Source of the DNA: Chromatiales bacterium
GTDB lineage: Bacteria; Pseudomonadota; Gammaproteobacteria; SpSt-1174
Direction of reading: 5' to 3'
Assembly (NCBI GenBank): GCA_014762505.1
Contig: JABURS010000037.1
Span: 62,001 to 126,000, forward strand
DNA length: 64,000 nt
Each line of letters begins with the position of its first letter. The stretch's first letter is position 1. A program made the translations under genes and the position numbers. The notes beneath the pieces are model-generated. The model was not told where the DNA came from. It searched no databases and was given only the letters and a program-made list of their open reading frames with translations. Shown in pieces: positions 2,236 to 62,679 of this stretch.

Positions 2236-4278
2236 TCAGGCGGCCAGGCCACTGTGACGCAGCAGGGCGTCGATCTCGGGTTCGCGACCGCGGAAGGCCC
2301 TGAAGGAGTCCATGGCGGGGCGCGTGCCCCCCACCTCGAGGATCTGCTCCAGGAAGTCCTGCCCGACCTTCGGGTTGAACAGTCCCTCTTCCTCGAAGCG
2401 CGCGAAGGCGTCGGCCGACAGCACCTCGGCCCACTTGTAGCTGTAGTAACCGGCCGCATAGCCACCGGCAAAGATGTGCGAGAAGCCGTGCTGGAAACGG
2501 TTGAAGGCCGGCGGCTGCACCACCGCCACCTCGGCACGCACCTCGTCCAGGATCTCCTGGATGCGGCCGCCGCGCGCGGGGTCGTATTCCAGGTGGATGC
2601 GCATGTCGAACAGCGCGAACTCGATCTGGCGCACCATCATCATGGCGGCGTGGTAGTTCCTGGTCGCCAGCAGTTTCTGGAAGAGCGTGTCGGGCAGCTT
2701 CTCACCGGTCTGCCAGTGGGCGGCGAACAGATCCAGGGCCTCGCGCTCCCAGCACCAGTTCTCCATGAACTGGCTGGGCAGCTCCACGGCGTCCCATTCC
2801 ACGCCGTTGATGCCGGACACGGCAGGGTAGTCCACCCGCGTGAGCATGTGGTGCAGCCCGTGGCCGAATTCGTGGAACAGCGTGATCACCTCGTCGTGGG
2901 TGAACAGTGCAGGCCTGTCGCCCACGGGCGGGGTGGAGTTGCAGGTCATGTAGGCGACCGGCAGCTGCAGCCCCTCGGGGGTGCGCATGCGACCCATGCA
3001 GTCGTCCATCCAGGCGCCGCCGCGTTTCTTCGACCGGGCGTAGAGGTCGAGATAGAACTGGGCGCGCAGTTCGCCGTCCTCGCCGCGCACCTCGTAGAAG
3101 CGCACGTCCGGATGCCAGGTGTCCACACCCTCGACCGGCTGGATGCTCACGCCGTAGAGCCGCCCGACCAGCTCGTACAGCCCCTTGAGCACCTGGTCCA
3201 CCGGGAAGTAGGGCTTGAGGTCTTCCTGGGAGATGGCATAGCGCTGCTGCTGCAACTTCTCGCTGGCATAGCCGATGTCCCAGGCCTGCAGGTCGTCCAG
3301 TCCGAGTTCCTTGGCGGCAAAGGCTCGCAGCTCCTCGATCTCGCGCATCGCCCCCGGCTTGCTGCGACCGGCAAGGTCGCGCAGGAAGTCGAGGATGGTC
3401 TGCGGGTCGTCGGCCATCTTGGTGGCCACGGACTTGTGCGCATAGCTCGCATAGCCGAGCAGGCGGGCGGCCTCGTGGCGCAGGGCGAGGATCTGCTCCA
3501 TCAGGTCCGAGTTGTCCCATTCGGGGTGGCCGCCCTGGTCGGAGGCACGGGTGCTGTAGGCGCTGTACATCTCCTCGCGCAGGTCGCGGGAGTCGGCGTA
3601 GGTCATGACCGCGTAGTACGAGGGGAAGTCCAGGGTGAAGACCCAGCCGTCCATCTCGCGCTCGGATGCCGCCTGGGCAGCCATGTCGCGGGCGGAATCC
3701 GGCAGTCCGGCGAGCTCGGCCTCGTCCGTCACCTGCCGGGTCCAGGCATTGGTCGCATCCAGCAGGTTTTCCTCGTAACGTGACTGCAGGCGGGACAGCT
3801 CCTGCTGTATCGCCTTGAAGCGCGCCTTCTCGGCGTCCGGCAGGTCCACCCCACTCAGGTGGAAGTCACGCAGCGCATCGCGGACCGTCTTCTGCTGGGC
3901 CGTATCCAGGCGTTCGAATTCGGGCCCTTCGGCGATGGACCTGAAGGCCTGGTAGAGCGCGGCGTTCTGCCCGATCTCGGTGCCGTACTCGGTGAGCTTG
4001 GGCAGGCAGCGGTTATAGGCCTCGCGCAGGGCCTCGCTGTTCACCACCGAATTCATGTGCTGCACTGGCGACCAGATGCGGCCCAGTCGGTCCTCGGCCA
4101 GTTCCAGCGGGGCGATGAGGTTGTCCCAGGTGTAGCCGGTGGCCTTGCCCGCCGCCAGCAGGCGTTCGAGCAGGGCGCGGTTCTCGGCCAGCTGGTGGTC
4201 GATGGCCGGTTCCACGTGCTCCGGGCGGATCCGGGAAAAGGGCGGCAGCCCCTGCATCTCGAGTAGCGGATTGGACAT
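2236..4278 (-). CDS. prlC: Oligopeptidase A (M3 zinc metallopeptidase)
   Basis: 680 residues, the same length I recall for E. coli PrlC. Cytoplasmic M3-family thermolysin-like peptidase that degrades oligopeptides, including cleaved signal peptides. The zinc site HEFGH lies at residues 469-473, with the second block GINGVEWDAVELPSQFMENW providing the Glu ligand. The frame stays open upstream to 4731, but ATG 4278 (MSNPLLEMQGLPPFSRIRPE) is chosen because the family's N-terminus begins there and the upstream extension overlaps the neighbouring gene. The SH3 gene follows within 3 bases. Confidence 0.96.
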   Translation of the reverse strand: MSNPLLEMQGLPPFSRIRPEHVEPAIDHQLAENRALLERLLAAGKATGYTWDNLIAPLELAEDRLGRIWSPVQHMNSVVNSEALREAYNRCLPKLTEYGTEIGQNAALYQAFRSIAEGPEFERLDTAQQKTVRDALRDFHLSGVDLPDAEKARFKAIQQELSRLQSRYEENLLDATNAWTRQVTDEAELAGLPDSARDMAAQAASEREMDGWVFTLDFPSYYAVMTYADSRDLREEMYSAYSTRASDQGGHPEWDNSDLMEQILALRHEAARLLGYASYAHKSVATKMADDPQTILDFLRDLAGRSKPGAMREIEELRAFAAKELGLDDLQAWDIGYASEKLQQQRYAISQEDLKPYFPVDQVLKGLYELVGRLYGVSIQPVEGVDTWHPDVRFYEVRGEDGELRAQFYLDLYARSKKRGGAWMDDCMGRMRTPEGLQLPVAYMTCNSTPPVGDRPALFTHDEVITLFHEFGHGLHHMLTRVDYPAVSGINGVEWDAVELPSQFMENWCWEREALDLFAAHWQTGEKLPDTLFQKLLATRNYHAAMMMVRQIEFALFDMRIHLEYDPARGGRIQEILDEVRAEVAVVQPPAFNRFQHGFSHIFAGGYAAGYYSYKWAEVLSADAFARFEEEGLFNPKVGQDFLEQILEVGGTRPAMDSFRAFRGREPEIDALLRHSGLAA

Positions 4279-60409: not shown

Positions 60410-60913
60410 ATGCGTGAGATTGTGTGGTCTCCCAGCAAGGCGGCTTCGCCAAGGTGCGCACGCGGCTTCAGCTTTATTGAGCTGGTGACGGTACTCCTCC
60501 TGATGAGTGCCTTGGCGGTACTCGTCTATCCTCGTCTGGCCTCCGTCGAAATCGAAGAGGCCGCCTTCGAGCAACAACTCCTCAATGCCCTGCGTTATGC
60601 CCACAAGCAGGCGATGAATTCCGGCTGCGCGATCCGAGTCGAGGTGCGCGCGGCCTCCAACGACTACGGTGTCTACCTGCGCGACGACGCCACGGCGAAC
60701 AGCTGCGGCAGCGCGGGCTTTGGCAGCAATCCCCTGCCCGATCCCGCGGGCGGGGTGTACGCGGGCAGCGCCCCGGATGGCGTGACCATCAGCAGCGGGC
60801 TGGCCTTCACCTTCGATGGCCTCGGCCGGCCGCAGCCCGCCGGCGGCAGCATGACCTTCAACGGCCGCAGCATCGTGGTCGAGAGCGAGACGGGGTACGT
60901 GTATGCCCCATAG
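60410..60913 (+). CDS. mshC: Minor pilin MshC (GspH/FimT-like)
   Basis: 167 residues. Leader of 19 residues ending ARG, then FSFIELVTVLLLMSALAVLV with Glu at +5. The GspH-like body has AYHKQ-type helix (ALRYAHKQAMNSGCAIRVEV) and the C-terminal FNGRSIVVESETGYVY. ATG 60410; GTG 60407 is one codon earlier. Overlaps mshD by 11 bases. Confidence 0.87.
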   Translation: MREIVWSPSKAASPRCARGFSFIELVTVLLLMSALAVLVYPRLASVEIEEAAFEQQLLNALRYAHKQAMNSGCAIRVEVRAASNDYGVYLRDDATANSCGSAGFGSNPLPDPAGGVYAGSAPDGVTISSGLAFTFDGLGRPQPAGGSMTFNGRSIVVESETGYVYAP

Positions 60914-61361
60914 TCCGCGTCAGTCCGGCTTCACCTTCATCGAGCTGGTGATCTCCATCGTGATCATCGCGGCCGCCGTCGGCGGCATCATGGTGACGGT
61001 GGCCAATACCGTGGCGCGCAGCGTCGACCCCATGATCCAGACGCAGGCCATCATCCTCGCCCAGGGCTACCTGGACGAGGCCCTGCTGCGGCCCTACGCA
61101 CCGGGGCCGGCGACCTGCAGCGACCCGGACGGCGCACGCGACCAGTTCGACGACGTGGCCGACTACGGCTGCGTGAACAACCCGAACGGACCGCGCGACC
61201 AGTACGGCAACCAGCTGCCCGGACTGGCGGACTACAACGTCAGCATGAGCGTGACGGATGCCAGCCTGGGCGGCGTGGCGACCCGGCGCGTGGAGGTGCG
61301 CGTCACCCACGACAGCCAGGGCATCGACATCCGCCTGGCCGGACACCGGGCAAGCTACTGA
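60903..61361 (+). CDS. mshD: Minor pilin MshD
   Basis: 152 residues. Leader MPHSPRQSG, mature FTFIELVISIVIIAAAVGGI with Glu at +5; the body includes GYLDEALLRPYAPGP, the MshD/PilV-like block, and ends with RRVEVRVTHDSQGIDIRLAG. Its TGA overlaps the mshO ATG by one base (TGATG). Confidence 0.88.
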   Translation: MPHSPRQSGFTFIELVISIVIIAAAVGGIMVTVANTVARSVDPMIQTQAIILAQGYLDEALLRPYAPGPATCSDPDGARDQFDDVADYGCVNNPNGPRDQYGNQLPGLADYNVSMSVTDASLGGVATRRVEVRVTHDSQGIDIRLAGHRASY

Positions 61362-62278
61362 TGCGCAAAGGCAGCTACACAACGTTCGTAGGAGCGCCGC
61401 AAGGCGCGATCCTGCGTGCGCATCAAAGGCATTATCGCGCCTTGCGGCGCTCCTACGAGGGGTCGAGCCAGCGCGGCTTCACGCTCATCGAGATGGTCAT
61501 CGTCATCACCATGCTGGGTGCGCTGCTGGCCCTGGGCGGGGTGTTCATCGTCCAGCCGTTTGAGGCCTACGAGGACGTCGCCCGCCGCGCGCGGCTGGTG
61601 GACGTGGCCGAGACGGCGATGATGCGCATGACCCGCGAGACGCGCATGGCCCTGCCCAACAGCGTGCGCATCACCAGTAGCAGTAGCGACCCGCGACACG
61701 CGCTGGAATTCCTGGCCACCGCCACGGGCGGGCGTTATCGCCAGCAGGTGGACGACACCGGCGCCGGCGACCCGCTGGACCGCACGCTGGCCGCCGACAG
61801 CTTCGACGTGCTCGGCGGTCTGCAGGGGGCGGTGGCGGTCGGCTCGCAACTGGTGATCTACAACACGGGCGATCTGGGACTCGATGCCTACAAGGGCGAC
61901 AACAGCGCCCCTATCACGGGCGTCGGCGCGGCCAGCCTGAGCTTCGCCAAGGGGTCCGCGCCCGCCTTTCCCGCCGACTCGCCGCAGGCGCGCTTCTACG
62001 TGGTGACGGGGCCGGTGAGCTTCGTCTGCGATGCCGACAGCGGCACCCTGCGCCGCTATGCCGGTTATCCCATTCAGGCCACACAGCCGGTGAGCGATGC
62101 CGCCCTCGGTGGCGCCGGTGCCCTGCTCGCGGACAACGTGAGCAACTGCGGTACGGCCTTCACCTACAACGACGGCGGTGGCAGCCGCAACGGCCTGGTG
62201 ACCTTCCGGCTCACGATCACCGAGGACGGCGAACGGGTCTCGCTGCTGCAACAGGCCCATGTGCTGAACATCCCATGA
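61361..62278 (+). CDS. mshO: Minor pilin MshO with REPIN-derived leader extension
   Basis: 305 residues. Prepilin core begins at Phe40 (FTLIEMVIVITMLGALLALG, Glu at +5) after Gly39; the body has RRARLVDVAETAMMRMTRET, the MshO/PilW-like block. The leader is 39 residues, far longer than the usual 5-25, because residues 9-33 are encoded by a perfect inverted repeat (61386-61458). ATG 61361 is coupled to mshD (TGATG), so the long leader is probably real. In-frame TTG 61442 inside the repeat would give a normal 12-residue leader. Whether PilD-type peptidase handles the long leader is unknown. Confidence 0.85.
   Translation: MRKGSYTTFVGAPQGAILRAHQRHYRALRRSYEGSSQRGFTLIEMVIVITMLGALLALGGVFIVQPFEAYEDVARRARLVDVAETAMMRMTRETRMALPNSVRITSSSSDPRHALEFLATATGGRYRQQVDDTGAGDPLDRTLAADSFDVLGGLQGAVAVGSQLVIYNTGDLGLDAYKGDNSAPITGVGAASLSFAKGSAPAFPADSPQARFYVVTGPVSFVCDADSGTLRRYAGYPIQATQPVSDAALGGAGALLADNVSNCGTAFTYNDGGGSRNGLVTFRLTITEDGERVSLLQQAHVLNIP
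61386..61458. repeat. REPIN-like element (two inverted REP units) inside mshO
   Basis: Two perfect inverted 25-base arms (61386-61410 and 61434-61458) around a 23-base spacer. Each arm begins GTAGGAGC or its complement and has its own hairpin GCGCC-GCAA-GGCGC, the structure of REP sequences in Pseudomonas and other gammaproteobacteria. REP pairs are spread by RAYT transposases; none is in this window, and no second copy was seen here. Confidence 0.85.
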
Positions 62279-62679
62279 TGAACGGACCCGGCAGACAACG
62301 CGGATTCAGCCTCTTCGTCGCGATCTTCCTGATCACGTCGATCCTGGTGATTGCGGTGATCTCCGCCTCCACGCTGACCTCGCGCAGCATCAGCACCGCG
62401 CAGGGCCTGCTCGCCGCGCGCGTGTACTATGCGGCAAAGAGCGGGCTGGACTACGCGACCGCACAGGTCCTGCCCGCCGGTCAGGGTTGCGGCAACGTGG
62501 GTGGCTCGGTGACGGTGGAGGGTATCAGCGTCACCCTGGGCTGCAGCGAGGCGACCATCAGCCAGGGAACGGAGAGCATCGCCGTCTACCAGCTCAGCGC
62601 CCAGGCCAGCACCGGCAACCTGAACGACGGCACCTTCGCCTCGCGCAACCTGCGCGCCACCGTGAGCGGGCAGCCGTGA
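62275..62679 (+). CDS. mshP: MSHA biogenesis protein MshP (PilX-like)
   Basis: 134 residues. Leader MMNGPGRQRG then FSLFVAIFLITSILVIAVIS; position +5 is Val rather than Glu, as in PilX-like proteins. LLAARVYYAAKSGLDYATAQ is the conserved helix. Overlaps mshO by 4 bases and is 11 bases from mshQ. Confidence 0.87.
   Translation: MMNGPGRQRGFSLFVAIFLITSILVIAVISASTLTSRSISTAQGLLAARVYYAAKSGLDYATAQVLPAGQGCGNVGGSVTVEGISVTLGCSEATISQGTESIAVYQLSAQASTGNLNDGTFASRNLRATVSGQP

Follow-up and report, generated by a model that had tools for sequence, protein, structure and literature searches.

The closest described systems to the locus analyzed here are REPINs and GTAG-type REP sequences with their RAYT genes (Bertels and Rainey, 2011, PMC3116915; the 2013 paper on GTAG- and CGTC-tagged repeats, PMC3733652). 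In SBW25, 14 of the 1,067 counted REP 16-mers overlap genes (PMC3116915). Extragenic placement is the rule but is not absolute in PMC3733652, which describes intragenic in-frame REP dimers that encode 20-30 residues within real open reading frames, some of them N-terminal. The same paper cites Rickettsia palindromic elements (RPE), which lie in frame in working genes and whose N-terminal members are reported to be expressed in vivo. Prepilin leaders are cytoplasmic and variable in length, are cleaved after Gly or Ala, and are very long in some pilins (PMC10191384).

Here we describe a repeat of this type in a 64,000-nucleotide stretch of DNA from a Chromatiales bacterium (the window). As in the published REPIN/RAYT systems (PMC3116915, PMC3733652), the element is an inverted doublet with GTAG heads, belongs to a family with dozens of dispersed copies of 66-79 bp, and shares its genome with a RAYT gene that has these repeats on either side. 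Unlike usual REPINs (PMC3116915), the copy studied here probably lies within a coding sequence, that of the minor prepilin gene mshO. REPINs, RAYTs, and in-frame intragenic GTAG REPs, N-terminal ones included, are already published (PMC3733652), so the kind is known, and the original prediction overstated the case in calling a REP inside coding sequence unusual as such. We favor the reading, to which we give a probability of roughly three in four, that a 69-bp RAYT-type REPIN inserted between the mshO start and the cleavage site, where it is translated, discarded with the leader, and near-neutral.

The mshO repeat and its family

The window carries an msh-type pilus operon around position 61361, in which the gene order mshD-mshO-mshP is found as a prepilin gene upstream and an mshP-like gene downstream of mshO (Table 1). 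The mshD-position TGA shares its final A with the mshO ATG. No curated model matched MshO, whose name comes from homology and gene order. Its prepilin motif scored 27.2 bits against both TIGR02532 (cut-off 16.3) and PF07963 (cut-off 21.2), and residues ~35-305 align to relatives, Vibrio included. Beyond the leader, mshO is intact: its codon usage is of the coding type and its homology runs the full length. Codon scores for codons 1-40 (0.03 and -0.12 per codon) were uninformative, and those farther on were mostly 0.1-0.7.

Table 1. Coordinates of the mshO REPIN and surrounding features in the window.
Feature	Position	Strand	Remarks
mshD-position prepilin gene	60903..61361	+	TGA overlaps mshO ATG (TGATG)
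mshO, minor prepilin	61361..62278	+	305 aa
MshO leader	61361..61477	+	39 codons, contains REPIN; predicted cleavage after Gly39
Perfect-arm palindrome	61386..61458	.	73 bp; arms 61386-61410 and 61434-61458, loop of 23 bases
REPIN proper, from GTAG to CTAC	61388..61456	.	69 bp = 23 codons, multiple of three
Left REP arm	61388..61409	+	GTAGGAGCGCCGCAAGGCGCGA
Right REP arm	61435..61456	-	Inverted copy of left-arm sequence
Alternative in-frame TTG start	61442..61444	+	Inside stem
mshP-position gene	62275..62679	+	Ordinary short leader

The frame is open throughout from ATG 61361 to the prepilin core FTLIEM at 61478, and the REPIN lies between the two, as originally predicted. The encoded leader, MRKGSYTTFVGAPQGAILRAHQRHYRALRRSYEGSSQRG, is basic, with 8 lysines plus arginines and 1 acidic residue. 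When the flanks are joined without 61388-61456, the result is MRKGSYTTFEGSSQRG followed by FTL, a leader of 16 residues. The predicted 73-base element with perfect 25-base inverted arms was confirmed; the palindrome arms are complementary at 25 of 25 positions, and the two inverted REPs form a single hairpin whose stem begins 25 nt past the ATG. The palindrome alone folds at -59.2 kcal/mol and RNA from 61340-61500 folds at -81.4 kcal/mol (z = -6.1 versus shuffled sequence). An Rfam search of the hairpin gave only sub-threshold matches, mainly of microRNA type.

Within the window there are two copies of the arm and no third at up to 3 mismatches (0.03 expected). The original prediction called for a genome-wide arm count and a search for a RAYT gene, and both bear out the REPIN identity. 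First, a search of the 2.77-Mb genome with the 20-base REP arm, allowing 2 mismatches, gave 79 matches, compared with 0 for the reversed control; a looser arm pattern gave 115 matches versus 2 in the control. At least 26 distinct inward REP pairs, 66-79 bp long, were present in the genome stretches fetched. The two arms of the mshO REPIN are identical, and perfect arms are present in other REPINs of the genome as well. Second, a gene at G000:C16:6486-6953 (G000 being the genome of the window) matches the RAYT model NF047646 at 143.7 bits (cut-off 80) and has REP arrays of the same family on both sides. The element at 61388-61456 is a REPIN. The arm also has 42 matches in the second genome of the genus and none in a genome from another genus of the family.

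Many REPINs of this genome have TTC or TC directly before the GTAG of the left flank, which may reflect a target preference of the RAYT. A second RAYT-type gene (L124, G000:C37:127993-128500; NF047646, 162.6 bits) lies ~2 kb beyond the right end of the window. The repeats that flank it belong to another palindrome family, ATAGGGCGGCCCRTGGCCGCC, of which the window has no copy. In a crude scan of REP sites against open frames, made with no gene finder, most of the overlapping frames resembled antisense shadows, or run-in stretches whose coding score was negative. Besides mshO, two single degenerate arm matches fell inside long frames (C40:38718 and C43:72185), and these may be chance matches.

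The mshO start codon

Whether this REPIN is intragenic depends upon the start codon; it is intragenic if mshO begins at ATG 61361 and extragenic if it begins at TTG 61442, the sole other in-frame ATG, GTG, or TTG before the core. We surveyed 95 mshD-mshO junctions of relatives, taken from named genomes and a set of 369 class genomes. A start codon lay between -4 and +12 nt from the mshD stop in 88 of the 95, and 42 had the TGATG-type overlap (-1) that is also present in the window. Because the position of the overlapping start is conserved across MshO relatives, ATG 61361 is the expected start and is most likely the inherited, coupled one, judging from this comparison of sequences. A REPIN downstream of that start would be translated within the MshO leader, which gives indirect support to the original prediction on this point; GSYTTFVGAPQGAILR is an example of a peptide expected of such a leader. 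The leader is also unusually long, as had been noted, at 39 residues versus a median of 9 from the stop-adjacent starts of the survey. ATG 61361 has no good Shine-Dalgarno sequence (predicted pairing -3.6 kcal/mol), consistent with re-initiation there by ribosomes coming off the end of mshD.

The original prediction also raised TTG 61442 as the start. The REPIN would then be effectively extragenic, with a 12-residue leader, MRRSYEGSSQRG, a hairpin in the 5' untranslated region, and a coincidentally open frame upstream. This TTG is in frame, its leader would be within the survey range, and most N-terminal REPs elsewhere are suspected of being extragenic (PMC3733652). Moreover, the window frame lacked a stop in 33% of shuffles, or 11% once the frame factor is added, so that its openness is weak evidence for translation by itself. 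Against this alternative, TTG 61442 is buried in the 25-bp stem, its only Shine-Dalgarno-like sequence, AAAGG, is not well spaced, at 12 nt, and pairs weakly (predicted -3.2 kcal/mol), and it is ATG 61361 that occupies the conserved TGATG position. We therefore consider a TTG start unlikely, a judgment to which the leaders of other lineages contribute below.

Repeats in other prepilin leaders

Nearly all MshO relatives are without any insert. Comparing mshO among relatives, as originally suggested, turned up genes that do not carry this element, the relatives compared being distant ones only. An empty-site mshO was not found in searches of the genus, family, and order (3 genomes in all), and neither the other genus genome (75% complete) nor the other family genome gave an mshO match. 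Two pattern scans of 369 class genomes, one for a GTAG-REP end and one for a CGGGAATCC repeat end lying no more than 30 nt from a prepilin core, together gave the window itself, one apparent chance match, and no further case; the exact arrangement is therefore rare.

Six surveyed junctions exceeded 100 nt, and in five of these, the window included, no stop interrupts the frame that begins with the start next to the end of mshD. The MshO leader of L134 (G148:C5, about 1470-1720) spans 83 codons from a TGATG start and contains a palindromic GC-rich repeat, of which 96 kb of that genome hold 5 copies, the insert counted (control 0); the MshO leaders of its congeners L136 and L138 have 23 codons. 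In L038 (JALTLP010000087.1, a Chromatiales MAG), both the MshO leader (89 codons) and the MshP leader (82 codons) are long, compared with 22 and 12 codons in its relative L039. The L038 MshO leader contains TCATTGCGAGCGTTAGCGAAGCAATC in both orientations, together with a second, GGCGGGAATCC-type repeat; the former has 35 matches in the genome, against 0 for the control. The mshP leader of L038, at 3745-3990 with an ATG that overlaps the mshO end, carries a separate, perfectly paired copy of the palindrome found in the MshO leader. Both L038 leaders have 0 stops in the coding frame and 4-9 in the other two frames, and the chance of having no stop is ~0.01 for each leader; these frames, kept against ~1% odds each, also argue against the TTG start in the window. 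All three lineages (that of the window, L134, and L038) have basic leader peptides, and the leader repeats of the other two lineages are unrelated in sequence.

Two further loci, L180 (G240:C34) and L193 (G042:C38), have leaders of 38 and 35 codons with stop-overlapping ATGs. Their inserts look palindromic or tandem but did not recur in the genome stretches checked (327 kb for L180 and 183 kb for L193), and they were not counted as repeats. L128 (G010:C205) is a counter-example rather than a supporting case, as stops in the mshO frame require a start farther downstream; it demonstrates that initiation can shift from the coupled start to one downstream, a point in favor of the TTG alternative. 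The mshD-mshO junction of L128 owes its length of 135 nt to a stretch that encodes SRQLSVISCQQSA-like peptides and may be a simple tandem repeat. Separately, L127, L149, and L150 (G095, G093, G096) each have one in-frame TGA in the aligned region of the mshO relatives.

The recurrence comprises 3 genomes and 4 leaders, picked by inspecting junction outliers, and is a lead rather than a rate. It suggests that the prepilin leader is a site where genomes may tolerate such insertions. A broader proposal is that MshO and MshP leaders at stop-start overlaps are recurrent safe harbors, where the peptide is cleaved off and unrelated palindromic repeats enter in frame repeatedly, up to a maximum of ~90 residues; we hold this tentatively and at somewhat less than even odds.

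Proposed origin and comparison with known systems

In the insertion model that we favor, the REP-flanked RAYT would have mobilised the 69-bp REPIN to a site downstream of the mshO ATG. Since mshD and mshO overlap at stop and start, there is no room between the genes, anything inserted past the start falls within mshO, and only insertions that preserve the frame and are free of stops would survive. Ribosomes ending mshD would re-initiate at ATG 61361, traverse the hairpin, and produce a basic 39-residue cytoplasmic leader, which prepilin peptidase is predicted to cut after Gly39, leaving mature MshO unaltered. In-frame insertions would be tolerated because prepilin peptidase takes off the repeat peptide along with the rest of the leader, and this REPIN would be near-neutral because the leader is cleaved and mature MshO is unchanged. 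On this evidence the REPIN is probably tolerated and not necessarily selected. The term 'domesticated', used in the original prediction, goes further than the data, which a tolerated insertion explains.

Domestication would apply if the hairpin were a selected regulator that slows early elongation, or termination-reinitiation at mshD-mshO, and thereby sets the MshO dose. The great stability of the stem, its position 25 nt past the ATG, its perfect arms, and the stable hairpins that are also present in the L038 leaders would fit such a role. Perfect arms, however, are shared by other REPINs of the genome, consistent with recent insertion, the insert is missing from nearly all MshO relatives, and the repeats of the other lineages differ in sequence; we regard regulation as improbable, more so than a TTG start. 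Least probable of all is that the insertion is harmful and mshO is becoming a pseudogene. In favor of this, the leader is far above the survey median and no close relative was found for comparison; against it, the insert is a stop-free multiple of three, the remainder of the gene has the intact coding sequence and homology described above, and the prepilin motif exceeds its cut-offs.

If REPIN insertion and tolerance is the correct reading, then it suggests a rule for the survival of REP-type elements inside genes, namely that their peptides are made and then discarded. The overlap-held start also offers a case against the usual view that N-terminal REPs reflect wrongly annotated starts. Should larger surveys bear out the recurrence, REPIN insertion, tolerance, and frame selection could be measured in prepilin leaders as in a natural laboratory. 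We found no paper that brings prepilin leaders and palindromic repeats together in the literature searched, which was covered in part. Three features seem new: a position within a peptide that is thrown away, a start fixed by gene overlap, and the recurrence of unrelated repeats in two other lineages.

These features set the mshO REPIN apart from its nearest counterparts. Compared with the N-terminal REPs in PMC3733652, which are mostly suspected of being extragenic, the stop-coupled, conserved start of mshO argues for translation; in addition, relative to the REPs described there, the mshO repeat peptide lies in a segment that is predicted to be cleaved off. RPE, as cited in that paper, and the mshO REPIN are both palindromic and in frame in genes and differ in repeat family and host; unlike in RPE, the peptide encoded by the mshO repeat would be lost when the leader is cleaved. 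Type IVb and S. sanguinis pilins (PMC10191384) resemble MshO in having cytoplasmic leaders longer than those of typical type IVa pilins and a Gly before the hydrophobic core, but their leader length comes from a conserved leader, whereas that of MshO comes from a mobile repeat.
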